This document shows, piece by piece, positions 4,060 through 31,908 of a stretch of 41,504 nucleotides of DNA; positions within the stretch are counted from its first letter, which is position 1, and each line of letters opens with the position of its first letter. Under the pieces are notes generated by a model. It saw nothing but the letters and a program-made list of their open reading frames with translations. It did no database searches and was not told the DNA's origin. The position numbers and the translations under genes were made by a program. The DNA is from a virus: the IMG/VR virus record IMGVR_UViG_3300020053_000022, positions 1 to 41,504 of that record, one strand, 5' to 3'.

Positions 4060-4623
4060 CTATAAAATATCGTCTGCTATATTTAAATCAACCAATTGTT
4101 TGGCTGTATAATATTGATCACTAGGGTTCTTAATAAATTTACTATTAACTTCTGGTACAGTCATACCTGTTGCTTCACGAAGTATCTGCATACACCTTTG
4201 TTCGCAGTTAGCATTTTCTTTCATCTGCGCCTTCATGTCATGCATTTTAGATTCCATTGAGTCACTGTGTTGATGATTCATAATACCTGTGTTTTTACCA
4301 ATCCAACGATATCCCTTTGTTCCACTAGCAAAAATTAAAAAACCTGCACTCATAACAGCACCAATACCTACTGTGCTAATATTATGGTAACTGTTCTTCA
4401 TAACATCAATAAGAGCAAATGCTTCATATAGATCTCCGCCTATTGTGTTAACATACAGTTCGAGTGTTCGTTTGGGTTTTTTAGTTAGGTTAGCACTGAG
4501 TATCCATTTGATAGTTTCACTAACGTTTTCGTTAGCAATCTCTCCGCTTAGATAGTGTATGTCGTTATCAAGTAACGATCTATCTACAGCATCAGAACTG
4601 TTCCAATTATCATATTTAGGCAT
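4060..4623 (-). CDS. ClpP-like serine protease
   Basis: 187 aa, close to the usual ClpP size of about 195. Landmarks in order: GGDLYEAFALIDVM (ClpP GG..., oxyanion region), GAVMSAGFLIFASG with the nucleophile Ser in MSAG, NTGIMNHQHS with the catalytic His, and SDQYYTAKQLVDLNIADDIL matching the ClpP D...FMSAEEA.GLID.V stretch with the catalytic Asp. The full triad therefore appears present. It could be a phage ClpP that docks with host ClpX/ClpA, or a prohead-type ClpP-fold protease; position among early genes and fit to ClpP favour the former. A late octamer lies 15 bp upstream and no Shine-Dalgarno is visible. Confidence 0.85.
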   Translation of the reverse strand: MPKYDNWNSSDAVDRSLLDNDIHYLSGEIANENVSETIKWILSANLTKKPKRTLELYVNTIGGDLYEAFALIDVMKNSYHNISTVGIGAVMSAGFLIFASGTKGYRWIGKNTGIMNHQHSDSMESKMHDMKAQMKENANCEQRCMQILREATGMTVPEVNSKFIKNPSDQYYTAKQLVDLNIADDIL

Positions 4624-5453: not shown

Positions 5454-5819
5454 ATGGAAATTTTCCTTTTATTAATGATTAAACATGCAATAGTAGATTT
5501 AGGATTTCAACCTTTTGGACTTGGAGCAACCAAATTAAAATATTTTGGTTGGCTAGCACACAAACAACATTACATACCGCACGGATTACTAACTATAATC
5601 GCACTTGCATTGACCTTGCAAGGGCCCTTAGAGCTTGTTGTAGCACTTGGTATACTTGATTACATACTACACTGGCATACCGACTACTTTAAGACCCATA
5701 TAAGAGAAAAAATGCAATGGAAATCAAACCAAAGAGCATTTTGGGTACTGAACATGGTCGATCAGATGTTACACTTCTTAGGATATTATTTGATTGTTAG
5801 ATTAGCTTTGGCTATTTGA
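5454..5819 (+). CDS. Membrane protein, DUF3307-like
   Basis: 121 aa from the ATG at 5454 (GGAG ten bases upstream); an ATG at 5409 is in frame but precedes the late-promoter octamer. Several hydrophobic helices are visible (MEIFLLLMIKHAIVDLGFQ, GLLTIIALALTL, LVVALGILDYILHW, MLHFLGYYLIVRLALAI) with conserved-looking His residues (KHAIVD, HKQHYIPHG, LHWHTDYFK). The arrangement recalls DUF3307-type membrane proteins; the role is unknown. It is one of few plus-strand genes before 39.7 kb, and its end overlaps the convergent 529-aa gene by 8 bp. Confidence 0.65.
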   Translation: MEIFLLLMIKHAIVDLGFQPFGLGATKLKYFGWLAHKQHYIPHGLLTIIALALTLQGPLELVVALGILDYILHWHTDYFKTHIREKMQWKSNQRAFWVLNMVDQMLHFLGYYLIVRLALAI

Positions 5820-7401
5820 TCATTCTACCAAATCCAAAACTCATTGAACCTGGTAACGCCATAGTAGCATAAAACTCTTTGCCTGAATCAAATCTAATTT
5901 GTCCTTCAAACACTGGTGGATAAATGACAGCCATTTTAGTAAACTTACCTTTATCATCGCCCTGCATTTGGAACGTACTTTTAATTTGAATCATGTTAGA
6001 ACTTTCAAGTACTGTTTTAAAGAATCTGTTTAATTGATCTGGATTTTTATTCATTGCATTTTGTGTTGCTTTTGCAAGAACTGTTGTCCAATGCCATAAC
6101 TTCTTGTACTTGGCATTGTTAATAGATGAATCTTTAGGACGATATGTGTCTGAATTCATATATGCGGTGTAGTGTCTTGGTAGTGCTTTACTAATAGCAC
6201 CTTCATCGTTCCATGAATTAGGATCGTTAACTAATCCTTTAACTGCTTCTAGTTCTGTTTCGTTTAGGATACCAACTGATGCCGCAAGTTTATAAATTTG
6301 ATGTTTCTTATCTTTTTCTTTAATGATGTTCATCCAAGAAAGGTATTCTGCAAATTCCTCAAAGAACTTAGGATTAGCCGCTTTAAGCTGATCTGGTTTA
6401 TTATCAATTGTCTCTGCAATACTAACTGCACTTGCTTTCGCACCACCCTTACCGTCTTTAGCACTAATACCAACTCTAGTTCCCTTAGGTGATATTAAGA
6501 AACTATCAATAAGTTTTTGTGTTTCGTCTGCAGGGAAATCAACAGTATTCATTGCACCCCATGTTAACCCTGGCTCTAGTACTTGTAAAAGATTTGTTTC
6601 TGCTTCTTTTACACTACCTGTGACAATACTTGATCCTTGAGATAACGCTATAGGCCCTGCTACTTCACCAATCTGTACTTCATAATTTCCTTTGTAATCT
6701 TTAGTTGCAGGCATTACTTTATCTAAGTTGTCTAGTATGTCTGCTACAATTTTTCTTTCTTCTGCTGGCACATCATCTGGATACAATGTTGACGTTCTTA
6801 TTGCATTAGCAACAGAGTCAACTGGCATTGGACCATTAGTAATACCTAGTCTGTTTGGAAACATTCTAATGTTAGGATGTGCTTTGTTTGAATTCTGTGC
6901 TTTAGTTTTAATAATATCAAATCCCAATGGAGCAATATTTCTCATAAAGTCTGTTTGTTCCCACTTGATGTAACCACTAGTTTTTTGTTTGTAGTATCTT
7001 ACAAAGTGAAGTGTTCCTGAGTCTGTAGTAACTTCAACAACAATAGCCGCAAACGGTCCCATTGGTTGTTTGTTTACTTCTTTTAAGTCCGCTGTTGCTA
7101 CACCGGCTGTCGCTAAATCGTTTTGGAATTGTTCTGCTGGCGTTTCGCTCTTTGGTCCTACAGCTGAACCATTCTTTGCATCAGCTGGATCAGTTGTTTG
7201 CGGTGCTTCTACTGCAACGTATTGCTGTTGGCTAGCTTCTAATGGAAAGAACCAACTATTGGAAGGAATAAATTTACCACCTTCTTTAGTTGTAAAAGGA
7301 CTTTCCATGCCTTTATCATTGATATCGTCTACAGCACCTTTGATACCTCTAGTGCTTTCAATAACTGGCTTATTATATTTTTTAAACTCGAAGAATCTCA
7401 T
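5812..7401 (-). CDS. Large hypothetical protein, probably structural
   Basis: 529 aa, no enzyme motif recognised. It begins MRFFEFKKYNKPVIES, like other head-region proteins in this window. Ala/Thr/Pro-rich low-complexity stretches near residues 60-95 are followed by mixed alpha/beta sequence. A late octamer (GATAAATA, 7411-7418) lies only 9 bp before the ATG and no Shine-Dalgarno fits, which suggests a nearly leaderless late mRNA and a virion role. The stop overlaps the convergent membrane-protein gene. Confidence 0.65.
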   Translation of the reverse strand: MRFFEFKKYNKPVIESTRGIKGAVDDINDKGMESPFTTKEGGKFIPSNSWFFPLEASQQQYVAVEAPQTTDPADAKNGSAVGPKSETPAEQFQNDLATAGVATADLKEVNKQPMGPFAAIVVEVTTDSGTLHFVRYYKQKTSGYIKWEQTDFMRNIAPLGFDIIKTKAQNSNKAHPNIRMFPNRLGITNGPMPVDSVANAIRTSTLYPDDVPAEERKIVADILDNLDKVMPATKDYKGNYEVQIGEVAGPIALSQGSSIVTGSVKEAETNLLQVLEPGLTWGAMNTVDFPADETQKLIDSFLISPKGTRVGISAKDGKGGAKASAVSIAETIDNKPDQLKAANPKFFEEFAEYLSWMNIIKEKDKKHQIYKLAASVGILNETELEAVKGLVNDPNSWNDEGAISKALPRHYTAYMNSDTYRPKDSSINNAKYKKLWHWTTVLAKATQNAMNKNPDQLNRFFKTVLESSNMIQIKSTFQMQGDDKGKFTKMAVIYPPVFEGQIRFDSGKEFYATMALPGSMSFGFGRMIK

Positions 7402-7410
7402 AACACTAAT

Positions 7411-7418
7411 ATTTATCC
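7411..7418 (-). promoter_or_regulatory. T4-type late promoter (GATAAATA)
   Basis: Octamer on the minus strand 9 bp upstream of the ATG at 7401. It lies just before the stop of the upstream bilin reductase. Confidence 0.7.
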
Positions 7419-8108
7419 TAACTTAGGAAACAATGCATCTGCACAAAACTCGTCAACATCAGATTCAGACAGCCCTAATGACTTCATTACACGTGGAGTA
7501 TGTGGATTTTGTTGCTGGTTATGACAGTAGTAATTCTGTGCTCCAGCAGTAAGGTCAGATGATGCATTACCTGTATACTCAGGAACACTTTGAAACCATA
7601 CTTTTAAATTTTCAATAGCTAAATCGCAAATTGCAGTTGCTTCTTCTTCACTGCTAACATTCCCTGCGGCAATCATACCCGGGCTAAAGATGTTAGTTGC
7701 CCATTCAGGTAGTTCTCTTTTCTTACTTGGAATAAATTCTGCTACAGCATCTTGATACCATTCACATAAAGGGTGGTCTTCTCCTCCACTACTTGCACTA
7801 AAGTCGTGAAAGGCACCTGTCATTTTGTTCTTACCTGCAATAACATCAAACCCGTAAATAGGTGCATCGTTAGTTAGTGTTGGAAAACAGCATACATGCA
7901 TCATCCATAGTCCTTTAGACTCACGTACATCAACTACATCAATATGAGCTCTGCGTACATGCGGATTTGCCCAAACTTTATTAAGCCATCCATTTTCTGG
8001 TTGATTAAATTTATTAAGAGTTTTTTCTTCTTTCTCAATTGCAAACTCATCAAAGATTTCAATAATGCGATCTTGTGTGTTGATTAGTTTATTCCATATT
8101 ACGCTCAT
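7413..8108 (-). CDS. Ferredoxin-dependent bilin reductase (PebS/PcyX-like)
   Basis: 231 aa, matching the roughly 230-250 aa of the HY2/PcyA/PebS family that reduces biliverdin using ferredoxin. The core WMMHVCCFPTLTNDAPIYGF, then DVIAGKNKMTGAFHDFS, corresponds to the family's active-site sheet, with the catalytic Asp in GFDVIAG. Phage members include PebS (cyanophage) and PcyX (oceanic phage metagenomes, paired with heme oxygenase). Given the non-cyanobacterial context I favour a PcyX-like enzyme, but the product (phycoerythrobilin or other) cannot be read from sequence alone. The ATG overlaps the halogenase stop by 4 bp (ATGA), so it is translated from the clpS-HO-halogenase operon. Confidence 0.85.
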   Translation of the reverse strand: MSVIWNKLINTQDRIIEIFDEFAIEKEEKTLNKFNQPENGWLNKVWANPHVRRAHIDVVDVRESKGLWMMHVCCFPTLTNDAPIYGFDVIAGKNKMTGAFHDFSASSGGEDHPLCEWYQDAVAEFIPSKKRELPEWATNIFSPGMIAAGNVSSEEEATAICDLAIENLKVWFQSVPEYTGNASSDLTAGAQNYYCHNQQQNPHTPRVMKSLGLSESDVDEFCADALFPKLG

Positions 8109-9598
8109 CTGTTACTCCACTCTCTATTTGTTATTCCTGGCAATGACTCTTTTAATTCAACCTCATGCATAGCTTTAATTATATCAATTGCGTTTTGTTT
8201 TTCAATTTTTGGTGTCATTGGATTAATGCCTGTAGCATGTAGCCATAACTTCCAGTTTGTTTCTGCAAATATTTCCGTGTTACGTGGAAAGAACTGCGAT
8301 TGGTCTAGTGTTGATGTATATGTTTTTGCATACCCTGTGGCTAAATCTTGTAGCTGGGGTGTTTCTTTAAAGTTTTCGTAAACATGTTTCCAAAACTTAC
8401 CTTGTCTTAGATTATTAAAGTAATGCAATGCTACAAAGTTCATGCTATCTTCGTATACTGTTTCAATATCTTTATTGTAATTATCTACATCATCTTGTGT
8501 GTAGTGTCCTTTTTGTAAACATCTAAGGCCAGTTGCTCCAATGATTAATAATGCAAGACCTGTACTTTCTAGTGGCTCAATAAATCCACTAGCTAATCCT
8601 ACACTAAAACAATTACCTCTCCAGTTCTTTCTATTATACTTAGGTTCAAACGGTACATGATTAAACTTGCCTGTTCGTAGTCTATGTTCTCCCCAATGTT
8701 GTACAAAATGATCTTCAGCTTCTTGTTTAGTTGTTAGGTCACTGTTATAACACAGTCCACTTCCAATCCTGTCTTTAACAGGAGTTTTCCATATCCAACC
8801 TAGGTCAGTTGCTTGTGCAGTAACATAAGGTACTTGAGGTTCATCATCTGTTTCATAATCAATTTGACTTGCAACAGCGGCATTAGTAAAAAGCATATGA
8901 CTTCTATCAACCCAATCTGCACCAGGTAATGCATTTGACAATAATTTTTTAAATCCAGTACAGTCAACAAAGAAGTCAGCAGTAAGCTCTTGACCATCTT
9001 CTAATATAACTTTTTCAACTTGGCATTTATTAATTACAGGTTGACTAATGTGTTTCTTAATGTGTCTTAGTTTAGGATACTTTTTGTTTAGATACTCTGA
9101 TAAAAAGTTTGCAAGTTTAATAGCATCTAAATGATATCCTACATGAGCAGGACCGCCTTTAACACTTGTATTTTCTGGAATAATATTATTCTTAACGCAG
9201 GAGTTGTACCATGAGATATATGTTTCCATATCGGTTTGAGTAGCACCAGCATCAAGGGCTAAATTTACGATATCACCCATGTGTCCATCTTTACTAGTAC
9301 CTACCGGAAAATAAAACGGTTGCCATATATTTGTGTCATCACCTTTCCAGTTAGGAAAGTATGTTCCGCATTTAATAGTTGCATCTGATGCTTTAGTCCA
9401 TAACTCTAACGGAATGCCACAATCTTTTAAGTAATGGTCAAAGCCTAGTATAGTTGCTTCACCTACACCTACTGTTGGAATGTTAGGACTTTCTACAAGG
9501 GTAACAGATACGTTGGGTAAATTATATAAGGCATAAGCGGCTGTCATCCAACCTGCTGTTCCGCCACCAACAATACAAATACTTGATACGTTAGTCAT
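8105..9598 (-). CDS. Flavin-dependent tryptophan halogenase-like enzyme
   Basis: 497 aa, usual size for the family. An N-terminal FAD-binding motif IVGGGTAGWMTA is followed by VGVGEAT; SDATIKCGTYFPNW supplies the catalytic Lys (PrnA K79 equivalent). LGWIWKTP matches the halogenase GWxWxIP signature with Thr replacing Ile, and GFIEPLESTGLAL carries the Glu near the chloride site. Enzymes of this type use FADH2, O2 and halide to make an enzyme-bound haloamine. A cyanophage homolog (VirX1) is known to iodinate varied small substrates. The native substrate here is unknown; its place between heme oxygenase and bilin reductase, with overlaps at both ends, suggests a link to tetrapyrroles. Confidence 0.9.
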   Translation of the reverse strand: MTNVSSICIVGGGTAGWMTAAYALYNLPNVSVTLVESPNIPTVGVGEATILGFDHYLKDCGIPLELWTKASDATIKCGTYFPNWKGDDTNIWQPFYFPVGTSKDGHMGDIVNLALDAGATQTDMETYISWYNSCVKNNIIPENTSVKGGPAHVGYHLDAIKLANFLSEYLNKKYPKLRHIKKHISQPVINKCQVEKVILEDGQELTADFFVDCTGFKKLLSNALPGADWVDRSHMLFTNAAVASQIDYETDDEPQVPYVTAQATDLGWIWKTPVKDRIGSGLCYNSDLTTKQEAEDHFVQHWGEHRLRTGKFNHVPFEPKYNRKNWRGNCFSVGLASGFIEPLESTGLALLIIGATGLRCLQKGHYTQDDVDNYNKDIETVYEDSMNFVALHYFNNLRQGKFWKHVYENFKETPQLQDLATGYAKTYTSTLDQSQFFPRNTEIFAETNWKLWLHATGINPMTPKIEKQNAIDIIKAMHEVELKESLPGITNREWSNR

Positions 9599-10139
9599 TG
9601 CGTTCGTGTTCCATCATTTCCTTAAACGCCTTAGTTGCAAAATCAAAACATATCTTAGCTTCATCTGCTAAGCCGTCGTGTATCTTTGCTCTAATTTTTG
9701 TTTTAAGGTCATTGACTTCGCCATCGAACTCATACATAGTACCTTTGCCAGGCACTTTCTTTTTAATCATCTGTCCACCACTTAGATCCCCCATATGTCT
9801 AACATACAAGTGAGCCATGATCTTTTCTTTGTCGTCTTTAATAGACATGATATGATCAGTATATTCTTTAGTTACATTAAGTAGTGGCGGTGGGTTTTCT
9901 TTATCCTCCCACAGTTCTTCATAATCTTCAAAGATACGGGGAGCTCTACGAACTTCGGGAATATCGTCAAACAGTCCGTGTGCCATAGCAATTACTTCTA
10001 GTAAATTATAACACGGATGTTGGTTGAATAAGAATGTAGCATAAGTTTCAGGAGCAATGTTTCCTCCCATTAAAACTTTTACAAATTCTTGTCGTTCTGC
10101 ATTTTTGTGATGTTCCCAGGTAAGATCTTTTAAGCTCAT
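9591..10139 (-). CDS. Heme oxygenase
   Basis: 182 aa, short HemO/HO-1 type. The proximal-heme His lies in WEHHKNAE (residue 11, pattern HxxAE), and the distal helix signature is HLYVRHMGDLSGGQ. The enzyme opens heme to biliverdin, CO and iron, providing the substrate for the bilin reductase two genes downstream. The ATG overlaps the clpS stop by 4 bp and the stop overlaps the halogenase start by 8 bp, so all four genes are probably coupled. Confidence 0.93.
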   Translation of the reverse strand: MSLKDLTWEHHKNAERQEFVKVLMGGNIAPETYATFLFNQHPCYNLLEVIAMAHGLFDDIPEVRRAPRIFEDYEELWEDKENPPPLLNVTKEYTDHIMSIKDDKEKIMAHLYVRHMGDLSGGQMIKKKVPGKGTMYEFDGEVNDLKTKIRAKIHDGLADEAKICFDFATKAFKEMMEHERND

Positions 10140-10444
10140 TCTTTTTCCACTTTGATTTGTAATGGAAAACCATGACTTCTACTCAAAGTGGTTGCTTCAA
10201 CTGCCTTTTGTTCTGCTATTTCATAAGTATATATTCCGGCTACAGATGATCCACTTTCGTGTATATCCATAGTTATATCTCTAGCAGTCTCTGGCGAATG
10301 TCTAAAAACACTAGTAAGTATCTCAATCACAAAATCCATTGGAGTTGCATTATCATTGAGAAAGATTACTTTATACATATCGGGTTCAGTAACCTTAATC
10401 TTAATTTTTTCGTCTATTTCTACGTCCATATTATTACTTATCAT
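10136..10444 (-). CDS. clpS: ClpS-like adaptor
   Basis: 102 aa. YKVIFLNDNATPMDFVIEIL is the ClpS core (Y-x-V-x-x-x-N-D-x-x-T-x-M-x-F-V), followed by AGIYTYEIAEQKA (ClpS G-x-Y-x-x-E-x-A). ClpS binds N-degron substrates and hands them to ClpAP; the N-terminal extension here is about 20 residues. It is the first gene of the heme oxygenase/halogenase/bilin reductase operon and follows a strong terminator. A ribosome binding site (GAGGAGA) precedes the ATG. With the ClpP-like gene and tmRNA it suggests that the phage redirects host proteolysis. Confidence 0.9.
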   Translation of the reverse strand: MISNNMDVEIDEKIKIKVTEPDMYKVIFLNDNATPMDFVIEILTSVFRHSPETARDITMDIHESGSSVAGIYTYEIAEQKAVEATTLSRSHGFPLQIKVEKE

Positions 10445-10497: not shown

Positions 10498-10962
10498 TTA
10501 CTTGCTCTTGCCTTCGATAGTAAGACCGTCTTGGATCTTAATCTTCTTAGGCTGTAGTTCTTCTGGAACATTACGTTTTAGGTGTACATTAAGCATACCT
10601 AATTCTAATGTAGCATTTTCAACTTCAACGTGATCAGCAAGGGTAAACTCTCTACGGAAGTTGCGAGCGCCAATTCCTTTGTGTAGGTAGTTTACATCTT
10701 CGTCTCCTTTAGGAGCAGTTCCCTCGATTTTCAACATCTTTCCATCTTTTTCAATTGAAAGATTGTCCATACCAAAGCCAGCAACTGCGACTGAGATCAT
10801 ATACTCGTCATCGTTGATTTGTGCAATGTTGTATGGGGGATAACCATTTCCATTTGGGCTATTTGCGAACTGTGTTTCCAATTCGTTAAACAGTCTATCA
10901 AAGCCAATTGTAGCTCTGTGGAAGTGTGGTAGGTCTAGTGTGGTTAGTCTTTGTCTTGTCAT
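10498..10962 (-). CDS. Small heat-shock protein (Hsp20/alpha-crystallin)
   Basis: 154 aa from the ATG at 10962 with AAGGAGA upstream. The alpha-crystallin domain is clear: PPYNIAQINDDEYMISVAVAG, KIEGTAPK, and the GARNFRREFTLADHVEVENA strand region, then LELGMLNVHL. The N-terminus (FDRLF) resembles IbpA-type proteins. It holds unfolding proteins in the cytoplasm; T4-like marine phages often carry one. It has its own late promoter (10987-10994) and terminator, so it is likely a separate transcription unit. Confidence 0.93.
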   Translation of the reverse strand: MTRQRLTTLDLPHFHRATIGFDRLFNELETQFANSPNGNGYPPYNIAQINDDEYMISVAVAGFGMDNLSIEKDGKMLKIEGTAPKGDEDVNYLHKGIGARNFRREFTLADHVEVENATLELGMLNVHLKRNVPEELQPKKIKIQDGLTIEGKSK

Positions 10963-10986
10963 TTTGTTTCTCCTTATAATAAGCAA

Positions 10987-11065: not shown

Positions 11066-11623
11066 TTATGAGATATTGACGAAAAAGAATTGATTTAGGC
11101 TAAATCTGCCTGGTCCTTGTACAGGATTGACAGCATGTAGCTCAAAACTAGGAAATATCATAATGCTATTGTTTACTATGTTAGGTGTGTAGCGATGCTC
11201 TGGAAACACTAGTTCTCCGCCTTTGTAGGGCTTTGGTTCCTTATAAAACAAGCTGACTGCTGACATAACTGCACTATCTCTATGTCCATGGTATAATCCA
11301 TTTTCGTACATATTCAGCTGAGTAACATCAAAGTTACTTTGCCAAATAAACTGTGAAAATATATTTTCTTTTAATTCTTCTTCTAAATTGAATATTTTTC
11401 TATTGTGTGTAAGGATTTTACTTTTGCCACGATTGGCAACAAAGTGTTTATCCAAATGCACACTAGTCATATTCATTGCTCTAGGATCACCTTCATCTCT
11501 AGTGTCCTTGCAATATTGTTGCAACTCGTCTATTTCTTGCCATACTTCAGACAGTTCACTTGGTGAAAAGTAATCGTATATAATTGTATGGTAGAAAGGT
11601 TCTTTAAAATGTTTAACTTGCAT
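11066..11623 (-). CDS. 2OG-Fe(II) dioxygenase, prolyl 4-hydroxylase-like
   Basis: 185 aa. Iron ligands HxD in GLYHGHRDSAVMSAVSLFY (His, then Asp two residues on), distal His in FPSFELHAVNPV, and 2OG-binding Arg in GPGRFSLNQF: the P4H-type double-stranded beta-helix order. GGELVFPEH is also typical of the family. It uses 2-oxoglutarate and O2; the target (protein side chain or other) is unknown. Its ATG lies 11 bp inside the end of guaC, so the two are coupled. Confidence 0.85.
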   Translation of the reverse strand: MQVKHFKEPFYHTIIYDYFSPSELSEVWQEIDELQQYCKDTRDEGDPRAMNMTSVHLDKHFVANRGKSKILTHNRKIFNLEEELKENIFSQFIWQSNFDVTQLNMYENGLYHGHRDSAVMSAVSLFYKEPKPYKGGELVFPEHRYTPNIVNNSIMIFPSFELHAVNPVQGPGRFSLNQFFFVNIS

Positions 11624-12659
11624 TAAACTGATTGAACACTTGATTTACTTGTTGTGTACATCTTACAAATGTAGTACACTTGGGCATATCTTTAATACGT
11701 TTAGCACCAATATATGTACAAGTAGATCTTAGTCCTCCAAGAATTTCAACAACAGTTGCTTCAACAGGTCCTTTGTGAGGAAGTTCAACAACTTTACCTT
11801 CTGCTCCACGGTATCCATCTTTACGTGTACCATGTGTTGCCATTGCGGCATCTGAACTCATGCCATAAAACTGTATTTTGCCGTTTACTACTTCGCCTTC
11901 TGATTCATCGTGTCCGGCAAGCATACCGCCTAGCATTGTAAAGTGAGCACCTGCTCCAAAGGCTTTTGATACATCTCCTGGATACACGCACCCGCCATCA
12001 GCAATAATGTGTCCACCAATACCGTTGGCCGCATCAGCACATTCAATAATGCCTGATAGTTGCGGTACACCAACACCTGTCATTAGTCGTGTAGTACATA
12101 CTGATCCTGGACCAATACCACACTTAACAATGTCAGCACCTTTGATGATAAGTTCTTCTGTCATCTCTGCTGAAATAACATTACCAGCAATAATAGTTTT
12201 GTCTGGATATGCATCTCTAACTCTAGAAATAAAGTCTGCATAGTTTTCGTGATAGGCATTTGCAACATCAACAGTAATAAACTTAATGTCTGGATACATT
12301 GCTAGTACTGCCTTCATAGTAGCAAAGTCCGGAGCGTCTGGATCCCAAATAACTCCTGTACCTGTACAAACACTAAGGTATTTCATTTTAACACCTTTAG
12401 CATTTTTAGTCCAGTCATCAACTGTATAGTGTTTTCGCATTACAGTGATCATCTTATGTTCTTGTAATACTTTAGCCATTTCAAATGTACCAACACCGTC
12501 CATGTTAGATGCCATAATAGGTACACCTGTCCATTCGTTACCGTAATGAAATTTGAATGTACGAGTTAGATCAACATCACGTCTGCTTTCTAATTTTGAT
12601 CTTTTAGGTTTAAACAATACGTCTTTATAATCTAACTTAATATCTTGTTCAATTCTCAC
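11613..12659 (-). CDS. guaC: GMP reductase
   Basis: 348 aa, almost the same length as E. coli GuaC and colinear with it: MRIEQDIKLDYKDVLFKPKR at the start, GIGPGSVCTTR with the catalytic Cys, GVGVPQLSGIIECADAA, the IIADGGC phosphate loop, and FYGMSS plus YRAAEGK-like (YRGAEGK) segments. No CBS domains, which separates it from IMP dehydrogenase. It converts GMP to IMP with NADPH, so it can shift guanine nucleotides to the adenine pool, useful for an AT-rich genome. It starts with GTG, overlapping the upstream oxygenase stop (GTGA). Confidence 0.93.
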   Translation of the reverse strand: MRIEQDIKLDYKDVLFKPKRSKLESRRDVDLTRTFKFHYGNEWTGVPIMASNMDGVGTFEMAKVLQEHKMITVMRKHYTVDDWTKNAKGVKMKYLSVCTGTGVIWDPDAPDFATMKAVLAMYPDIKFITVDVANAYHENYADFISRVRDAYPDKTIIAGNVISAEMTEELIIKGADIVKCGIGPGSVCTTRLMTGVGVPQLSGIIECADAANGIGGHIIADGGCVYPGDVSKAFGAGAHFTMLGGMLAGHDESEGEVVNGKIQFYGMSSDAAMATHGTRKDGYRGAEGKVVELPHKGPVEATVVEILGGLRSTCTYIGAKRIKDMPKCTTFVRCTQQVNQVFNQFNAS

Positions 12660-13258
12660 TTTTTCACTCCATAATTAAATGATACTGCAATCCGTTGCAA
12701 ATCACTTTGATTTGATTTAACTTGATGTTTTATCCAACTAGGAAAAATTACAATCATTCCGTTTTTTGGAGGATATGTTGCCATTGTGCTTGTAATTGTA
12801 TTATACTGATCAAGGTTATCAGGAATATAATACTGTGCATCATCGCCTCTAAAAAACTGTAAGTCTCCCATGTTCTCTGCTGGAATGTCAATATAAAATA
12901 CACCACTCAACATAGCATCTTGATGATTGTGTAGTGTATGATATGCTCCTGGACCATTAATATTAATCCAAAAGTTTTGGAATTCTAACTCAGGCAATCC
13001 CATAGTTTTAGCACAATAGCCTACTTGTGCATCTAGTTCTTTTACGAACGTATTAAGAGTAAACACATGGTTAGGATCAACCAAATTTATATTCTCAATA
13101 CTGCGACTATGCCAACCGTTCATATTACTATTGCCACCAAGTTGGGGTTCTTTTGCCTGCCATGCAAGAGCAATTTGTTTTAAGGCGTTTCTATCAATTG
13201 ATTCTACATATCCTGCAAATACAATAGATGGAAACCAAAGGTCAGCTTTTAAATTCAT
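12656..13258 (-). CDS. 2OG-Fe(II) oxygenase (TIGR02466-like)
   Basis: 200 aa. Pattern of the 2OG-FeII_Oxy_5/TIGR02466 family: FWININGPGAYHTLHNHQDA, LSGVFYIDIP, then GMIVIFPSWIKHQV and RIAVSFNYG. His ligands appear in HTLHNHQDA and SWIKHQV, and the 2OG Arg in LQRIAVSF. Substrate unknown. It sits directly after bS21 copy 2 and overlaps guaC. Related genes lie at 30028-31908. Confidence 0.8.
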   Translation of the reverse strand: MNLKADLWFPSIVFAGYVESIDRNALKQIALAWQAKEPQLGGNSNMNGWHSRSIENINLVDPNHVFTLNTFVKELDAQVGYCAKTMGLPELEFQNFWININGPGAYHTLHNHQDAMLSGVFYIDIPAENMGDLQFFRGDDAQYYIPDNLDQYNTITSTMATYPPKNGMIVIFPSWIKHQVKSNQSDLQRIAVSFNYGVKK

Positions 13259-13259
13259 G

Positions 13260-13499
13260 TTAAAATCCTAGTTCTCTTTTACGTTCTCTCATTGCTTTCA
13301 AGTGTCTAGCTCGTCCAGCCGCTTTGGCTTTCTTTCGCTTTAGACTTGGTTTTTCATAATGTTGTTTTTCTTTGTATTCAATTAACACACCATCAAGTGC
13401 AACTACTTTTTTAAACTTTCTTAATGCGCCAGCAAAGTCGCCGTTACGCACTTCCACTGTCAAGCCCGTCTTCGGCTTGTCGTTTTTGTACTTTGACAA
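13260..13499 (-). CDS. rpsU: Ribosomal protein bS21, copy 2
   Basis: 79 aa with a 12-residue N-terminal extension over typical bS21. Core TVEVRNGDFAGALRKFKKVV, EYKEKQHYEKPSLKRKKAK and a basic C-terminal helix identify it. Its start overlaps the upstream gene in another frame by 56 bp, and a sigma70 promoter (13558-13587) lies inside that upstream gene, so it can be expressed independently. It is clearly divergent from copy 1 at 2809-3006. Confidence 0.9.
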   Translation of the reverse strand: MSKYKNDKPKTGLTVEVRNGDFAGALRKFKKVVALDGVLIEYKEKQHYEKPSLKRKKAKAAGRARHLKAMRERKRELGF

Positions 13500-13875
13500 A
13501 ATAGTTTTCTCCTTCTGCTATCTGTCTAATATCATAAACTCTATTGATATTAAGTATATTATACTGCATCTCACCCTGGTTTGTCAAGTAAAAAGTTTTA
13601 TCAAAACTTAACAAATATCCAATTACCCATTGCATCTCTTTTGTATTATCAATATCTATAATAACATAATCAACACTTTGAGCAATATCTAGTAACCAAC
13701 TTACATCACCTTCCGATTCCCAAAGATAAAGATTAATTGTTTTACCGTCAAGATCTTTTAACATATTATTAAACTGCTCTTTGACTTCAACTGATGGATT
13801 TATCAATAAGAAGCTAAGATTATTATTCAATAATTTGTCAGGTGGTGTGATTAAATTAACAACTGGGTCAGACAT
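13444..13875 (-). CDS. Hypothetical phage protein
   Basis: 143 aa from the ATG at 13875 (an upstream GTG at 13914 adds 13 residues). It alternates strand and helix in a Rossmann-like rhythm (NLSFLLINPS, TINLYLWES, VDYVIIDIDN, KTFYLTNQG). No catalytic residues can be named. Its 3' end contains the promoter and start of bS21 copy 2. Confidence 0.6.
   Translation of the reverse strand: MSDPVVNLITPPDKLLNNNLSFLLINPSVEVKEQFNNMLKDLDGKTINLYLWESEGDVSWLLDIAQSVDYVIIDIDNTKEMQWVIGYLLSFDKTFYLTNQGEMQYNILNINRVYDIRQIAEGENYFVKVQKRQAEDGLDSGSA
13558..13587 (-). promoter_or_regulatory. Internal sigma70-type promoter for bS21 copy 2
   Basis: Minus-strand -35 TTGACA (13582-13587), 18-bp spacer, -10 TATAAT (13558-13563), inside the 143-aa gene and about 60 bp before the bS21 ATG. 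Confidence 0.8.
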
Positions 13876-13956
13876 AGTAACATTACTTATTTTTGTGTAT
13901 TGTTTGCCAGACACTATTCTGGCTCTGTTCTTGATTTTGTTGATAAGTTGGCTCGA

Positions 13957-15681
13957 CTACTTCTGTGAAGTCTGGTCTGAGTCTTTTGTTTTTTTGCGGA
14001 TCTGTTTGTTTTCTACTTTGGTTATGTACGAAGTTTTTTTTTGATCTTCTAACTCTGCACTATAAAAGATTCTATTTCTTGTATTTGGAATTTCTGGATT
14101 TTTTTCTGCTTCTTCGTTTGCCTTTTCAACCCAATCATTCCAGTTAGTAAGATCGTCTGTTTCGACCATTTCCTTGTTAATATCTGCTCGACTAGGTTTT
14201 TTATCAAAGTCGAGTTCTAATTGTTCTTCTTCAGTTCCAGCCACAATTGGATCGTCTTCATCTTTTATTTCCTCTGATTTAAATTCTTCTGGATCAATAT
14301 CTGGGAATAACAAAAATTGATCGCTATGTTTACTCTTAATTGGGTCTTCTGCTAATTCTTCAAAGCCTGTTGGAACATTTTTAGCAATGGCTTGAGCTCT
14401 TGCGTGTTCGTATTCTCTACGTTCTTCTTCTGCTAATTCTTCTGGACTAACATCTTCAAACTGAGGATCGTCTTGTGGATCGTCCTCGTCTGACTTTGGG
14501 CGGCCGCCTCCACCTACATTACCACTATGTACCCAATGGAAAGTATATTGACTAGCAATTAATAGTAATACTGCTAGTGGATCAAACACAAAGATAATAA
14601 TGATAATAACCCAACGTACTGCTTCTTCAAGCATAGATTTGTCTGCGGCTTCACCATAAACAAACTCAGCAATATATTTGATAGGTCCTACTTCTGCTTC
14701 TAATTTACGATACTCGCCTTCTAGTGCATACTTCTCATCTGTAAGTATGTCAATTTCTGCATTAGCATTTTTAATTCTTGTATTTTGTGCATCTACTTGT
14801 GCATCGATATTATCAGACTTATCAGTATCACCTAATTGATCACGTAGTCTATTAATAAGTTCATTTGATTGTACAATTTGTGTTTCTACAGTTTTACGTA
14901 GTCTTTTGATTTCTTGTGCGGCCGCTTGTGCTTGTGGATTGTTAGATGCTTCTTCAATTTTAGTAATTAACTCGATACGTTTTGCTTGTTTTTCGTCTTG
15001 CCAATCCCCAATTTTATCAGCAGTCTTTTTACCAAAGATACCATCAGCACTAGCACCAATCATTTGTTGTGCTTTTTTTGTTTCGCCACTGTCAATATAG
15101 CCTTGTAGTGTAGCAAGGTCCCCGTCAATCTTAGCAAGTTCTTTTTTGTAAAGGTCTGCTTGTTTATCAATAATAGCCTGTTGTTCAGCAATGGCAGGTT
15201 CAATTCTTTCGTATGCTTTGTCTATACGGCTTTGTTCAGAATCAATCTGTGCTTGTATATTAGCATCACCACCAGTGGTACTTGTTTCAAGTTTTTTGAT
15301 CTTTTCTTCAGCACGATCGATAATATCTTGTTGTCTTTGTATTTCGTTTGTTAGACGTTCTACTTGAGCAACACTTTCTTGACCTGCACTTGTTTGCTCA
15401 ATATGTGCTTTGGATAGAAAGCCAAAGATACCCATGCTTGTAATAAACATAAGAACTAATACAGCAATACTTAGATAACTTTTCAGCCACCATGCGGCTT
15501 GGCTCCAATAACGGTGTAACCATACTGCGGTAACAAGTTTACCAACTTCTAATACACCACCCATAATAATAATGGGAACAGCGGCCGCGGCAAAAATAGC
15601 CACCAACCCAGCGACACTATAGTATATTGCTACTGCTGATATAGATATAGCAGATAAAAAAGTTAGTATTCCTATTAACAT
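13957..15681 (-). CDS. Large membrane protein with long coiled coil
   Basis: 574 aa from the ATG at 15681 (AAAGGAAACCAT upstream; a GTG at 15702 abuts the late promoter and is less likely). Two or three N-terminal transmembrane helices (MLIGILTFLSAISISAVAIY, LVAIFAAAAVPIIIMGGVL, LSIAVLVLMFITSMGIFGFL) are followed by about 250 residues of coiled coil, another hydrophobic helix near residue 360 (WVIIIIIFVFDPLAVLLLIA), and a long acidic cytoplasm-like tail. Inside the coiled coil, SADGIFGKKTADKIGDWQ resembles the repeat of PG_binding_1 domains. Such proteins occur in marine T4-like phages; function unknown, perhaps envelope remodelling or superinfection control. A late promoter lies 21 bp upstream. 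Confidence 0.75.
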   Translation of the reverse strand: MLIGILTFLSAISISAVAIYYSVAGLVAIFAAAAVPIIIMGGVLEVGKLVTAVWLHRYWSQAAWWLKSYLSIAVLVLMFITSMGIFGFLSKAHIEQTSAGQESVAQVERLTNEIQRQQDIIDRAEEKIKKLETSTTGGDANIQAQIDSEQSRIDKAYERIEPAIAEQQAIIDKQADLYKKELAKIDGDLATLQGYIDSGETKKAQQMIGASADGIFGKKTADKIGDWQDEKQAKRIELITKIEEASNNPQAQAAAQEIKRLRKTVETQIVQSNELINRLRDQLGDTDKSDNIDAQVDAQNTRIKNANAEIDILTDEKYALEGEYRKLEAEVGPIKYIAEFVYGEAADKSMLEEAVRWVIIIIIFVFDPLAVLLLIASQYTFHWVHSGNVGGGGRPKSDEDDPQDDPQFEDVSPEELAEEERREYEHARAQAIAKNVPTGFEELAEDPIKSKHSDQFLLFPDIDPEEFKSEEIKDEDDPIVAGTEEEQLELDFDKKPSRADINKEMVETDDLTNWNDWVEKANEEAEKNPEIPNTRNRIFYSAELEDQKKTSYITKVENKQIRKKTKDSDQTSQK

Positions 15682-19225: not shown

Positions 19226-20293
19226 TTAGAACTTGTATTTGATACTTGCTAACACTTGCTGTGTTTCAGCATGAGCCGCACCAGTAAATACGTTTGTTCC
19301 GCTTTTATCGTGATAATATAGACCCATTTCAATACCGTCCTGCTTGTCAGCACGTCTTGTTGAATCGTAATCTGTTACAATATTATGAACAATACCATAG
19401 TAGTTTCCATCATATCCAAGATCATCGTTTTCAGTTCTGTGTGCTGTAACGTATGTTGATTGTGTTACGCTATACATTACGCCATAATCCAAACGATCAT
19501 CTTTAGTGTATGTGCCTGTGTTACCATCGTCCCACAGTTCAACACCCCATAACATTGGAACACCAAATCTGTGTAGGCTTCCACCAATGGAGTAACCTTC
19601 TTGATCTGCTGTGCCAGCATCTTCAACACCGTCGATACGCATATAAGAAACATCAGCATAACCTAGTAGGCTAACTGTACCTGTGTAATAACCAACGTTG
19701 CCATCGTTATCCCAACCTAGTGAAACACCCCATGGCTGTTCTCTATCTAGTCTATATGAATCAAAATCAAATTCATTATCATATTCCCAACCACCAAATG
19801 TTAACACAGTCTTTTCTCTGTGATCAATTCTGTAGTTTGTTTCTGTAAAGATAAGCGGAGCACTAATCTTTGGAGTTTTTGCAAATCCCATTCTTTGTGC
19901 ATCAGTTTCACCAAGATAAATTCTTGCTGTGTCGTTACCAAAACCTAATTGCTTTTCTACCATTGTGTTGTTTAAACTAGTGTCAAGTGCATAGTGTGAA
20001 TCATATTTAAATGAACCGCCTGCCCAATTGATGTTTAAATTGTTTTCTGGTAAATCAGTTTCAATTCCAAGTTGTAGTTCACCACGTGAGTCCCAACCTG
20101 AATCATAAGTCTTGTCATCATAAAATCCTTCTACATTACCATTGACAAAAAAGCCATTTGGAATGTTAGGCATACTATTCTCTAAAGCCTCTACACGACT
20201 TTCAAGATTTTTGTTTTGATCTGTTCCGTCTGCTAATACCATACTAGATAATAAGCTGAATAGAATAGTCAAAGTTGCTACTTGTTTTTTCAT
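19226..20293 (-). CDS. Outer-membrane porin-like beta-barrel protein
   Basis: 355 aa. Sec signal peptide (MKKQVATLTILFSLLSSMVLA), a short periplasmic heptad segment (LESRVEALENSM), then many amphipathic strands with alternating aromatics, and the terminal phenylalanine motif of outer-membrane proteins (SIKYKF). Size and style match a 16-strand general porin. It would insert into the host outer membrane through BamA. It could replace or mask host porins used as receptors, or change nutrient uptake. A terminator lies just upstream, so it is probably controlled independently. Confidence 0.8.
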   Translation of the reverse strand: MKKQVATLTILFSLLSSMVLADGTDQNKNLESRVEALENSMPNIPNGFFVNGNVEGFYDDKTYDSGWDSRGELQLGIETDLPENNLNINWAGGSFKYDSHYALDTSLNNTMVEKQLGFGNDTARIYLGETDAQRMGFAKTPKISAPLIFTETNYRIDHREKTVLTFGGWEYDNEFDFDSYRLDREQPWGVSLGWDNDGNVGYYTGTVSLLGYADVSYMRIDGVEDAGTADQEGYSIGGSLHRFGVPMLWGVELWDDGNTGTYTKDDRLDYGVMYSVTQSTYVTAHRTENDDLGYDGNYYGIVHNIVTDYDSTRRADKQDGIEMGLYYHDKSGTNVFTGAAHAETQQVLASIKYKF

Positions 20294-20425: not shown

Positions 20426-21490
20426 TTAGCCAGTTGCATATCCATTAGCACCCAATACAGTTTGTGCCCATGGATATTTTGGTAGTCCGGTTCTACTTCC
20501 ATTGGAACCCCAAGCTATTTTAGCACCTCTAATATCAATGTGCGTAAATGAATTGTATATACCAATTGCAGTAAACCCTGCGTTGATTGCTTCTTGTATG
20601 AATTTTTGTCTTTCTGCTGTTGTTAATCCTGTTTGAACAACATCAACAGCATTGCCTAACATGTGTTGACTTTTCTTAGATCCGCCAACTTTTGAATTGT
20701 ATTCCGGACTTCTATATCCGCTAGTAATAGTTAATTGAAATCCCATTGCTTGAGATAATTTTTCTAAGTTGCTTACAACTTGTGGTTTAACTCTGCTGTC
20801 AACGTGTGGTAACCATTTAATATATTGACCATTTTCGTTTGATGGTTGCTTACTTGGAACATCTTCTACTGCCGCCTCAGGTGGAGCAGATGCTACTGCT
20901 GGACTTGATGGTGCAGGTTGTGGACCCGCAGTATCTGTTACACCTGCACTACCGCCGGTAATTACAGGACTCTTATTACCACGTCTAGCAGTTGGGATAC
21001 CACCATCGCCGTATTCTACTGCTTCTGTTGTATCTGGATCAACACCATTATCTCTTTCAATCTTACGACCAATAATAATGTCTGCAGATTCTACTACATC
21101 AAGTGTAACTTTTTCAAAGCCCATTGCCGCGGCAACTAAATTACTTTGTGCGTTAGCTTGTTCTTCTGCTCCTGCTTGTGGATCAGCAATTACATTAGTA
21201 CTGCCTGTGATTATAACTGCTTTATAAGGAGCATCTGTGTCAATGCTATCCCCAAGCCTAGCTGTTAGTATATTGTTAGTAATATCTATAGTTGACCCTG
21301 TTATAATCTTTCCTATGTGTCCGCAATCAGTTTCAACTAGATCACCTAGTCTTGCTGTGGGTACATTGTTAGTAAGAACAGTTGGACTACCTGTAATGAT
21401 AGTGCCGCCGACACCCAAAGGCACAACATGACTAGGATGATAACAAGTCCCGTCTGTTCTGTCTCCAATTTTTGCTACTGGTTGTCCCAT
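20426..21490 (-). CDS. PAAR-repeat spike protein fused to M15 peptidase
   Basis: 354 aa. Residues 1-100 are PAAR: GVGGTIITGSPTVLTNNVPT, ARLGDLVETDCGH and a second similar repeat (STIDITNNILTARLGD), which cap the central spike of contractile tails. A Pro/Ala-rich linker (about 185-215) leads to an M15-type domain: TSGYRSPEYNSKVGGS, SQHMLGNAVDV (His and Asp ligands) and FTHIDIRG (His). This is a D,D-carboxypeptidase/endolysin fold that cleaves peptidoglycan stems. The fusion makes a self-sharpening, wall-cutting tip, doing the job of T4 gp5 lysozyme with gp5.4. TAG|ATG abutment couples it to the upstream gene. Confidence 0.85.
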   Translation of the reverse strand: MGQPVAKIGDRTDGTCYHPSHVVPLGVGGTIITGSPTVLTNNVPTARLGDLVETDCGHIGKIITGSTIDITNNILTARLGDSIDTDAPYKAVIITGSTNVIADPQAGAEEQANAQSNLVAAAMGFEKVTLDVVESADIIIGRKIERDNGVDPDTTEAVEYGDGGIPTARRGNKSPVITGGSAGVTDTAGPQPAPSSPAVASAPPEAAVEDVPSKQPSNENGQYIKWLPHVDSRVKPQVVSNLEKLSQAMGFQLTITSGYRSPEYNSKVGGSKKSQHMLGNAVDVVQTGLTTAERQKFIQEAINAGFTAIGIYNSFTHIDIRGAKIAWGSNGSRTGLPKYPWAQTVLGANGYATG

Positions 21491-29352: not shown

Positions 29353-30031
29353 ACTTCATAGTGTCATAGTACTGGTATACTCGGTCCCACCACTTAGATT
29401 CCCACGCTTTAAATTCGTCTGGCCATAGATCAAACTGCTGATACGTTAAGTCGCGACAGCATACAAATACATGCCCTTCTTTAATGTCTGTGCCATATAT
29501 TTCGTTATGTGCTAAGGCATATGCTGTTAACTGCAAATAGTAATCTTCAATCCATTCTTTCTTCTTAGGCTTGTTAGATTGTTTAAAGTCCATAATCGCA
29601 GGTTGACCTTTGTATGTTCCTACAAGATCAGTTGTTCCTGCATAGATTTGAGGGTGATAAAGCATTACTTCTGTACCCCATATAGCATCTACATCAACCA
29701 TAGCATTATCGCGAATTTGTTCACCCATCTTGTTTGCTTGTTGACTGTAAGGATTACTACCCGGCTTTGGCCATTCACCATCTAGTATATAATCCTCTAA
29801 AAACTTGTGCATACGTGTTCCAACACCAGCGGCTTCTGTTACAATCTCTTGTGCTTTCTGTTCTCCAACACGCTTACGCCATGCGTTTAAATGCGTCATA
29901 TCCTTCGTTTTACTAAGGATTGTTGTAACACTTGCTACATGGTTACCATCTGGACAAGCATATAATCTTTTGCCATCTACGCTTTCACGTTTTAGTTCTT
30001 TATAATCATACTGTTGTGTTATTAAACTCAT
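29351..30031 (-). CDS. PD-(D/E)XK (RecB/Cas4-like) nuclease
   Basis: 226 aa. GVGTRMHKFLEDYI is the usual early helix; IYAGTTDLVGTYKGQPAIMDF followed by KQSNK gives the D...D-x-K catalytic core, and YYLQLTAYALAH is the QxxxY motif of RecB-type nucleases. Likely a DNA exonuclease for recombination or host-DNA breakdown. Its stop overlaps the late promoter of the tail-spike gene and its ATG overlaps the upstream oxygenase-like gene by 4 bp. Confidence 0.85.
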   Translation of the reverse strand: MSLITQQYDYKELKRESVDGKRLYACPDGNHVASVTTILSKTKDMTHLNAWRKRVGEQKAQEIVTEAAGVGTRMHKFLEDYILDGEWPKPGSNPYSQQANKMGEQIRDNAMVDVDAIWGTEVMLYHPQIYAGTTDLVGTYKGQPAIMDFKQSNKPKKKEWIEDYYLQLTAYALAHNEIYGTDIKEGHVFVCCRDLTYQQFDLWPDEFKAWESKWWDRVYQYYDTMK

Positions 30032-30570
30032 TTAATTTCTTCCTCTGGCTCTAGCCATTCTGTTACAAAATTGATAACCAACGCACTCCTTGTCTTGTGA
30101 TAAGGATATGTTCCATGATTAACGTTGCCTGTCATTAGTACTGTTTTACCTGGTGTAGGCACTACTTCATTAATACTAAGGGTAAGATCTCTTTCTACAA
30201 TAATTGTATATAACGAACCTGAATTATCGTTTGGTAGATCTAATTCTAAATCTTGTGCATACATTACTAAACTAATTAGATTAGGTTTGCCTGTATGATT
30301 GTGTACACTTTGGTATTCGTGTGGTTTGTAGTTGTGTAACCAGCTTTCGTCTACTGTTACGTTCTTTACAGGAATACTATGTTCAATCATTTTATCTTTG
30401 ACCCAAGTTTCCATTACTTTAAAACATTTAGGATCAATAGTGCTTTGTATTCGTCTAGGGTAATCTTTAACTTCGATAACATGTTTATTTGCATGTTGGT
30501 GTAAAGACTTCCAGTCGTCATAGTTTGTTTCAACTACAACTTGATTGTACCCTGTGTAGACTTTATCCAT
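30028..30570 (-). CDS. 2OG oxygenase-like protein, tandem copy C
   Basis: 180 aa from the ATG at 30570 (AGGAG upstream). WLHNYKPHEYQSVHNHTGK, then GSLYTIIVE, GKTVLMTGNVNHGTYPYH and LVINFVTEW: a jelly-roll with His residues where TIGR02466-like oxygenases place them, but HxH rather than HxD. It is paralogous to the next gene upstream (YQAIHNHG, GRVWHGVYP), which it overlaps by 8 bp. It may be an active dioxygenase or a degenerate one. Confidence 0.65.
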   Translation of the reverse strand: MDKVYTGYNQVVVETNYDDWKSLHQHANKHVIEVKDYPRRIQSTIDPKCFKVMETWVKDKMIEHSIPVKNVTVDESWLHNYKPHEYQSVHNHTGKPNLISLVMYAQDLELDLPNDNSGSLYTIIVERDLTLSINEVVPTPGKTVLMTGNVNHGTYPYHKTRSALVINFVTEWLEPEEEIK

Positions 30571-31324
30571 TAGGATCAAACTCCTCGTCTGGTGCAAAGT
30601 ATTCAAAGTCAAAGTCAACTACCCAAGTACGTCTTGGTGCTTTACAAGGATATACTCCGTGCCAAACTCTGCCGTCCATAATAACTGTTCTACCCGGATA
30701 TGGTGCAAATTGATTGTACTCTTGTGTTCCATCTGGGTTCGGCATCAGTGTATACAACATACCATTATCTGGTGACATTGTATTGTGTTCGCTGAGATTC
30801 TCAGGTGTTTCGTCCATAGCCATTACCATACTAATACATGCACTACCGTGATTGTGTATTGCTTGATATCCGCCATCATCGTAATCAACACACCAAGTCT
30901 TACTTACTTTAATAGTCTTAACAGGAATGCCGTTGCGCCTAACAACAGTCATTACCCAATCCATAAGTTTCTCCCAATCGATGTTGTCAAACTTTTCTTT
31001 GTCTATTGGAGGGAAGTTTGATTTTACAGTTGGTTCAAATCTTGTTTCTTTAAGAAGTTTACTACTTGGAAATCCTTGTTGCTCAGGTGTGTCAGGATTC
31101 ATCTTGTCTGACCTTACAACCTTGCCACCCCATGCAGGCAAGTTAGGTGGAGTAATATCATATTGATAACCATTGAATGTTGTTTTAACATTGCTTTGGT
31201 CTTCACCTTTAAATTTATCATTCTCAAACAATTCTAAAAACTGTTCATGGAATGGACATTTGATATCAACTATCCATTGATTACTAGCACTCATACATGT
31301 GCCTAAGTCTATTCGATTGGTCAT
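30563..31324 (-). CDS. 2OG oxygenase-like protein, tandem copy B
   Basis: 253 aa. The C-terminal 120 residues match copy C: WCVDYDDGGYQAIHNHGSAC, NGMLYTLMPN, GRTVIMDGRVWHGVYPC and TWVVDFDFEYF. The N-terminal ~110 residues are different and include PPNLPAWGGKVVRSDKMNP, which may be a binding extension. Probable iron ligands are the HNH pair and the WHG His. ATGA overlap with copy A. Confidence 0.65.
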   Translation of the reverse strand: MTNRIDLGTCMSASNQWIVDIKCPFHEQFLELFENDKFKGEDQSNVKTTFNGYQYDITPPNLPAWGGKVVRSDKMNPDTPEQQGFPSSKLLKETRFEPTVKSNFPPIDKEKFDNIDWEKLMDWVMTVVRRNGIPVKTIKVSKTWCVDYDDGGYQAIHNHGSACISMVMAMDETPENLSEHNTMSPDNGMLYTLMPNPDGTQEYNQFAPYPGRTVIMDGRVWHGVYPCKAPRRTWVVDFDFEYFAPDEEFDPNG

Positions 31325-31908
31325 GTGCGTCCCCTGTCTATAGCATTACAGTTTATAGTGAAGGTAATTCTATCTTTGTCAATCTGACTTGCTTGTGTCT
31401 TATGTGTTAACCAACCTGGAAACAATAATACATCATTAGTTTCTATACTTACTTCTCTCCAGTAATCGTGTATAGTGGCTTTTGGCTTTCGAGATGTAGC
31501 TATCCATCTTTCTCGCAATAGCTGTTCAAATTCTAAGTTACCACTTCCAATAGGTGCTTGTACATATGCTGATACAACAAGTGTTGTTGCACCATGCTCG
31601 TGTGGTAATGTGTGTGCATGTTTATTGTGCAGGTTTGACCAACTGCTTGTGTATATAACATCAGTATAATTACAATCCCATTCGTGTAGTGCTATTTCAA
31701 TCTTTGGCATTAACCATGTCATGAAGTCTTTGTTACAATCCCATTCGTGTGGAGGGTTTAGATGTCCGGCTGTACTCATGCCGCCATCTGCCTCTGTATC
31801 ATTTAGTTGTAGTTCTCTAGATTGATAATCTAAAAACTCTGCTACATTAAAACCAGGAGCATAGTTATATTTCCAAACTAAATTAGGGGTTATCTTTACT
31901 TCATTCAC
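31321..31908 (-). CDS. 2OG-Fe(II) oxygenase-like protein, tandem copy A
   Basis: 195 aa. SSWSNLHNKHAHTLPHEHGA, VVSAYVQAPIGSGNLEFE, then VLLFPGWLTHKTQ and RITFTINCNAI follow the TIGR02466/2OG-FeII_Oxy_5 layout. It heads the three-gene oxygenase series and has a sigma70 promoter just upstream (31931-31959). Substrate unknown. Confidence 0.7.
   Translation of the reverse strand: MNEVKITPNLVWKYNYAPGFNVAEFLDYQSRELQLNDTEADGGMSTAGHLNPPHEWDCNKDFMTWLMPKIEIALHEWDCNYTDVIYTSSWSNLHNKHAHTLPHEHGATTLVVSAYVQAPIGSGNLEFEQLLRERWIATSRKPKATIHDYWREVSIETNDVLLFPGWLTHKTQASQIDKDRITFTINCNAIDRGRT

Follow-up and report, generated by a model that had tools for sequence, protein, structure and literature searches.

A flavin-dependent halogenase between heme oxygenase and bilin reductase in a marine phage operon as a candidate bilin-tailoring enzyme

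Described bilin cassettes and viral halogenases

A cassette in which a heme oxygenase gene is followed by the bilin reductase gene pcyX (hemO-pcyX) was reportedly described in marine phages by Ledermann et al. in 2016 and 2018. This cassette is discussed in PMC11480375 together with a three-gene or broken form, hemO-pcyA/X-valaS, and the presence of hemO and bilin reductase genes in phages of apparently non-phycobilisome hosts is called 'still enigmatic' there. The main text of that paper on hemO-pcyA/X-valaS does not mention a halogenase.

In the DNA stretch analysed here, an IMG/VR virus record of 41,504 bases (the window), a gene for a flavin-dependent halogenase (FDH) is located between the genes for heme oxygenase (HO) and ferredoxin-dependent bilin reductase (FDBR). 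As in the hemO-pcyX cassette, HO is followed by an FDBR of the PcyX type, which matches the solved PcyX structure 5owg (PcyX_EBK42635; E 5.6e-81, 274.8 bits), but the two genes are not adjacent, since they are separated by the FDH and, in part of the relatives, by a CN hydrolase or 2OG oxygenases. Compared with the hemO-pcyA/X-valaS cassette, no 5-aminolevulinate synthase is encoded in the 41.5-kb fragment, whereas 10 of the 18 related contigs checked encode this enzyme, two of them (G013 and G014) beside HO-FDBR. The FDH belongs to the same viral family as VirX1 and the FDHs of the cyanophages Syn10, P-SSM2 and S-SSM6a, with conserved catalytic residues, and VirX1 also lacks the Trp4 motif (PMC8269204). 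However, these FDHs are only about 27-33% identical and form a different clade, and in the regions read around those of Syn10 and S-SSM6a, no link to HO or FDBR was seen. Among cultured marine T4-like phages, Pelagibacter phage Mosig EXVC030M carries HO and FDBR (48% and 53% identical, respectively) without an FDH between them, and in HTVC008M an FDH is located between terminase genes. In the literature searched, which covered few subscription papers and preprints, no earlier report of an FDH between HO and FDBR was found.

The four-gene operon and its predicted enzymes

The phage is probably T4-like and marine, as judged from its NrdA, which is about 72% identical to cyanomyovirus NrdA. Searches with Terminase_6N and Gp23 for phage typing gave no matches, and TerL of HTVC008M used as query matched contig G015 only. 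On the minus strand, the genes are arranged in the order clpS, HO, FDH and FDBR (Table 1), and the successive overlaps of 4, 8 and 4 bp claimed in the sequence-only reading were exact in the open reading frames. By family and motif tests, all four genes look intact. The HSP20 gene heads a conserved block upstream; its listed start codon is TTG, and the true start may be an internal ATG. The gene directly downstream of FDBR is probably co-transcribed with the operon; it is found at the same place in close relatives (as neighbour in L002-L025) and is diverged or replaced in others.

Table 1. Coordinates and profile or structure matches (E-values) of the operon genes and neighbouring genes in the window
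Feature	Coordinates	Strand	Matches
HSP20/IbpA-type small heat-shock protein	10498..10986	-	PF00011 1.4e-15; IbpA model 6.8e-38, below cut-off
ClpS, ATP-dependent Clp protease adaptor, 102 aa	10136..10444	-	PF02617 1.8e-28
HO, 182 aa	9591..10139	-	PF01126 2.6e-18; best PDB match 5kzl 1.8e-11
FDH, 497 aa	8105..9598	-	PF04820 1.2e-91; PHROG 2928 4.6e-101
FDBR, PcyX type, 231 aa	7413..8108	-	PF05996 7e-18
529-aa protein, directly downstream of FDBR	5812..7401	-	No Pfam or PHROG match
ClpP-type protease	4060..4623	-	PF00574 1.1e-25

Several other genes of the window were recorded. Two 2OG-Fe(II) oxygenase genes in tandem, together with a third ORF of similar sequence, are located at 30028-31908, and further 2OG genes at 11066-11623 and 12656-13258. 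At 20426-21490, a PAAR-like N-terminus is fused to an M15/MepK-like peptidase domain. The ORF at 19226-20293, whose product looks porin-like and seems to have a signal peptide, has no Pfam or PHROG match and is unusual in a phage.

The HO contains the axial His region HHKNAER (H11) and the sequence GDLSGGQ, both aligned with HO structures, and by its axial His and GDLSGG distal helix it is predicted to be a canonical heme oxygenase (PF01126). For the FDBR, the best PcyA in the PDB gave an E-value of only 2.5e-14 (56.6 bits), compared with the much stronger match to PcyX. The residues D57, H71 and D88 are present, and D57, the PcyX-specific Asp, is invariant across the FDBR alignment; its counterpart in the 5owg construct is position 63, which corresponds to native Asp55 if Met 9 of the construct is residue 1. 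Asp55 has been named as the PcyX-specific catalytic residue (PMC11480375). Because the FDBR is close to PcyX and keeps the Asp aligned to Asp55, it is classified as PcyX-type, with phycoerythrobilin as the product predicted from characterised relatives.

The FDH matches PF04820 with 308 bits (cut-off 21), spanning 7-462, and contains GGGTAG, the catalytic K76, WIWKTP, FIEPLESTG with E344 and a C-terminal PG..NR.W..R. K76, W268, W270 and E344 do not vary among 51 FDHs, PLES[ST]G is likewise invariant, and the clade has WIWKTP in place of the textbook WxWxIP (Ile to Thr). The AF2 model (pLDDT 91.8) superimposes on Thal, RebH and PrnA with TM values of 0.84-0.88. Profile, modelled fold and the GxGxxG, Lys, Trp-motif and Glu tests thus all place the protein in the FDH family as a predicted member. 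Of the Trp4 motif, the patterns of groups A and B were both absent from 13 FDH family members, in which HPF of Trp2 is replaced by QPF, APF, SPF or EPF. The Trp4 motif has been tied to tryptophan binding (PMC8269204); since the FDH lacks it, the name 'tryptophan halogenase' should not be read as indicating the substrate, tryptophan is disfavoured, and a non-tryptophan substrate is predicted. For the FDHs of the window and L002, dN is 0.039 and dS is 0.434, and pairwise dN/dS values of about 0.08-0.29 indicate that the gene is maintained by purifying selection.

Neighbourhood and history in related phages

To define the neighbourhood, scans of viral contigs and local tblastn were combined, yielding 92 distinct HO-FDBR loci. 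ClpS directly precedes HO in 90 of them and HSP20 is located upstream of ClpS in 77, with DnaK between or beside these two in relatives. ClpS-HO-FDBR is a widespread core and HSP20/DnaK-ClpS-HO-FDBR a conserved unit, in which the FDH is an optional insert. HO and FDBR are directly joined in 45 loci and separated by a short ORF in 27, by an FDH in 11, by an FDH plus a CN hydrolase in three, by a CN hydrolase alone in three and by 2OG or other genes in three; most relatives therefore encode bilin enzymes without an FDH. The distance from HO to FDBR is below 60 bp in 45/92 loci. A gap of at least 400 bp occurs between HO and FDBR in 20/92 loci and between ClpS and HO in 0/90 (Fisher 6e-7, a guide only, as the loci are related). 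The slot genes were assigned by Pfam to PF00795 (CN hydrolase), PF13640 and PF01126. The CN hydrolases (L045:3989-4756, L114:6528-7322 and L117:6545-7342) occur in several lineages, with or without an FDH. The second HO-like protein in the slot of L044 (2629-3255), in which Tyr replaces the axial His and GDLSGG is absent, may be a member of the HO fold that is not a heme oxygenase. Since the core is kept in 92 distinct loci and the FDH is under purifying selection, the arrangement is not due to chance.

The FDH scans returned the best 80 matches each, so that relatives with 40-50% identity could be missing. Among the matches listed, all FDHs with at least 50% identity are located in the HO-FDBR slot, comprising 25 contigs including the window and 15 distinct loci. 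Besides the window, the carriers are 24 contigs (L002-L017, the L026 group, L045, L046, L053 and L057), of which L016 ends inside the FDH, leaving only the HO side visible. The idea of a coupled gene set thereby withstood the check for neighbourhood conservation suggested along with it. The next viral FDHs (at most 39% identity), again among the matches listed, have flanks, fetched up to 6 kb, that contain neither HO nor FDBR; many of these FDHs are arranged in tandem arrays. Contigs such as L187, L189, L200 and L216 carry two to four divergent FDHs in tandem, some beside 2OG oxygenases. The best cellular matches in the genome scan reached about 33% identity; as no cellular relative above 33% was among the matches listed, a recent acquisition from a bacterium was rejected.

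All HO-linked FDHs form one clade (SH-aLRT 100), and the C-terminal signature PG..NR.W..R is present in 51/51 linked and 0/107 unlinked FDHs, copies that include repeat fetches of the same contigs. The accompanying FDBRs fall into two groups, a single clade being rejected (p-AU 0.0009), and the HO tree needs three changes. The FDH was therefore either transferred into the slot or retained amid losses, and its association with the slot has outlasted one line of descent from one recent common ancestor; single inheritance as a full account of the linkage is unsupported by the same p-AU value. Recombination via the conserved HO and FDBR flanks could be an alternative to selection for shared chemistry.

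In the sequence-only reading, ClpS had been considered an unexplained partner of the halogenase. This partnership was rejected, because ClpS precedes HO in nearly all relatives, with or without an FDH, and is grouped with HSP20, DnaK and ClpP/ClpX genes. As read from the sequence, a ClpP gene of the window type is also located downstream in L045 and L046, and G014 carries ClpX-like and GroES/GroEL-like genes. Since DnaK and HSP20 adjoin ClpS and the phages carry such genes, a phage proteostasis set (HSP20, DnaK, ClpS, ClpP/ClpX) is a better setting for ClpS than bilin chemistry, and the ClpP of the window is a possible functional partner. An unusually complete chaperone/protease set, with ClpX-like, GroES/GroEL-like and full-length DnaK genes, was observed at L338:1777-3051 and 13166-15112 and at L006:3214-5136. 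In other organisms, Clp proteases are linked to 5-aminolevulinate synthase or glutamyl-tRNA reductase, and by analogy such a link could join the proteostasis and bilin blocks.

In the 10 related contigs encoding 5-aminolevulinate synthase, the enzyme scores above the TIGR01821 cut-off, and five of these contigs bear an FDH. In G013 and G014, HSP20-ClpS-HO-FDBR is immediately preceded by the synthase gene, which is encoded on the other strand. The synthase gene adjoins DUF454, with a methyltransferase upstream in both FDH-contig neighbourhoods read; in L333 (629-3095), it is flanked by genes for a SAM methyltransferase and a membrane protein of the DUF454 family, and in G004 and G014, too, it is followed by a DUF454-like gene. 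The presence of 5-aminolevulinate synthase points to bilin production rather than heme clearance alone and, together with a DUF1127 gene, suggests an alphaproteobacterial host. No phage flavin reductase, Fer2 ferredoxin, psbA or phycobilisome protein was found in the 13-18 related contigs checked, all of them fragments. Evidence on the host, which the sequence-only reading took to lack phycobilisomes, is indirect and consists of 5-aminolevulinate synthase, DUF1127 and the absence of psbA from these fragments.

Possible roles of the halogenase

Our best reading, although a tentative one, is that the phage operon serves tetrapyrrole metabolism and includes its own tailoring enzyme, which would yield a halogenated bilin; halogenation within the bilin pathway is thus cautiously favoured, with a slot cargo acting on an unrelated substrate as a close second. 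HO would open heme to biliverdin IXa, which would then be reduced to phycoerythrobilin by the PcyX-type FDBR; both steps are well supported by sequence, and the products are those expected from characterised relatives. With reduced FAD, probably provided via a host flavin reductase, O2 and chloride or bromide from sea water, the FDH would form hypohalous acid, which would be passed to Lys76 for halogenation of a non-tryptophan substrate, a catalytic type that is well supported. The substrate would most likely be biliverdin, dihydrobiliverdin or phycoerythrobilin, and halogenation would probably occur at a nucleophilic meso or pyrrole carbon. The heme supply would probably be raised by the phages' own 5-aminolevulinate synthase, and ClpS would belong to a separate adjoining proteostasis set outside the bilin chemistry.

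Bilin halogenation is consistent with the overlap of the genes in one operon and with the confinement of all listed clade members to the HO-FDBR slot. This agrees with viral contigs L163-L171, whose HO (58-62% identical) has neither FDBR nor ClpS nor FDH in its vicinity. The FDH clade is monophyletic although the accompanying FDBRs are not one clade, it has a private C-terminal signature, and its low dN/dS and missing Trp4 motif, its full catalytic set and fold, the conserved PcyX-type residues and the 5-aminolevulinate synthase of related contigs also argue for this role. Known FDHs can halogenate pyrroles and accept large substrates (PMC8407142). On the other hand, most relatives make do without an FDH, the contigs, which are fragments, yielded neither a phage flavin reductase nor a Fer2 ferredoxin, and no halogenated bilin was found in the literature searched. 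Bilins would offer few sites for halogenation, as all beta-positions of their pyrroles carry substituents. Also, the junction is a general insertion slot, and recombination across its flanks could hold the FDH in position without shared chemistry. The shared pathway that had been proposed from the tight coupling is partly supported, in that the linkage is conserved, but linkage alone cannot prove a bilin substrate, because the junction also accommodates genes for a CN hydrolase, for 2OG oxygenases and for an HO-like protein that is degenerate.

These slot contents, together with the long gaps that occur between HO and FDBR but not between ClpS and HO, make it a serious possibility that the junction is a cargo slot, in which the FDH is co-transcribed for timing, kept in place by flank recombination and directed at an unrelated host or phage metabolite such as an indole, phenol, quorum or defence compound. 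Marine phages often have FDHs without HO nearby, and the substrate scope of VirX1 is very broad. However, unlike other phage FDHs, the slot clade was never found elsewhere among the matches listed, and it has a clade-specific tail. A wider version of the bilin reading, in which 5-aminolevulinate synthase, HO and PcyX form a phage bilin-tailoring pathway whose exchangeable slot enzymes decorate phycoerythrobilin to give, with the FDH, halogenated bilins, is conceivable but doubtful.

The departure of WIWKTP from the textbook motif could indicate that the FDH has lost halogenation and acts as an ordinary FAD monooxygenase, with a bilin or another molecule as substrate, which is unlikely given the invariance of Lys76, Glu344, both Trp residues and PLES[ST]G. 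Even less probable is a waste-handling or redox role, in which hypohalous acid, or the use of O2 and reduced flavin, would bleach or open heme or bilin for easier iron release or removal of a phototoxic product. The location in a heme-degradation operon and the iron-supply role discussed for the cassette (PMC11480375) would fit, but the presence of an FDBR gene downstream suggests synthesis of the bilin rather than its destruction. In addition, FDHs confine hypohalous acid to a tunnel and work slowly. Halogenation of a host or phage peptide, protein or tRNA, for example an aromatic N-terminus recognised by the ClpS encoded two genes upstream, is the least probable role, since ClpS precedes HO mostly in FDH-less loci, even though the active sites of some family members are large and open.

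The restriction of an FDH clade to the HO-FDBR junction, among the matches listed, provides a concrete lead on the enigma of bilin genes in phages of apparently non-phycobilisome hosts. We know of no enzymatic origin for halogenated bilins as a natural product class. If bilin halogenation is confirmed, it would, to our knowledge, be the first enzymatic halogenation of bilins, reveal a natural substrate of a viral halogenase and give evidence for virus-encoded modular tailoring of small molecules in the ocean; if it is not, a slot for exchangeable enzymes is still defined in an operon that is common among marine phages.
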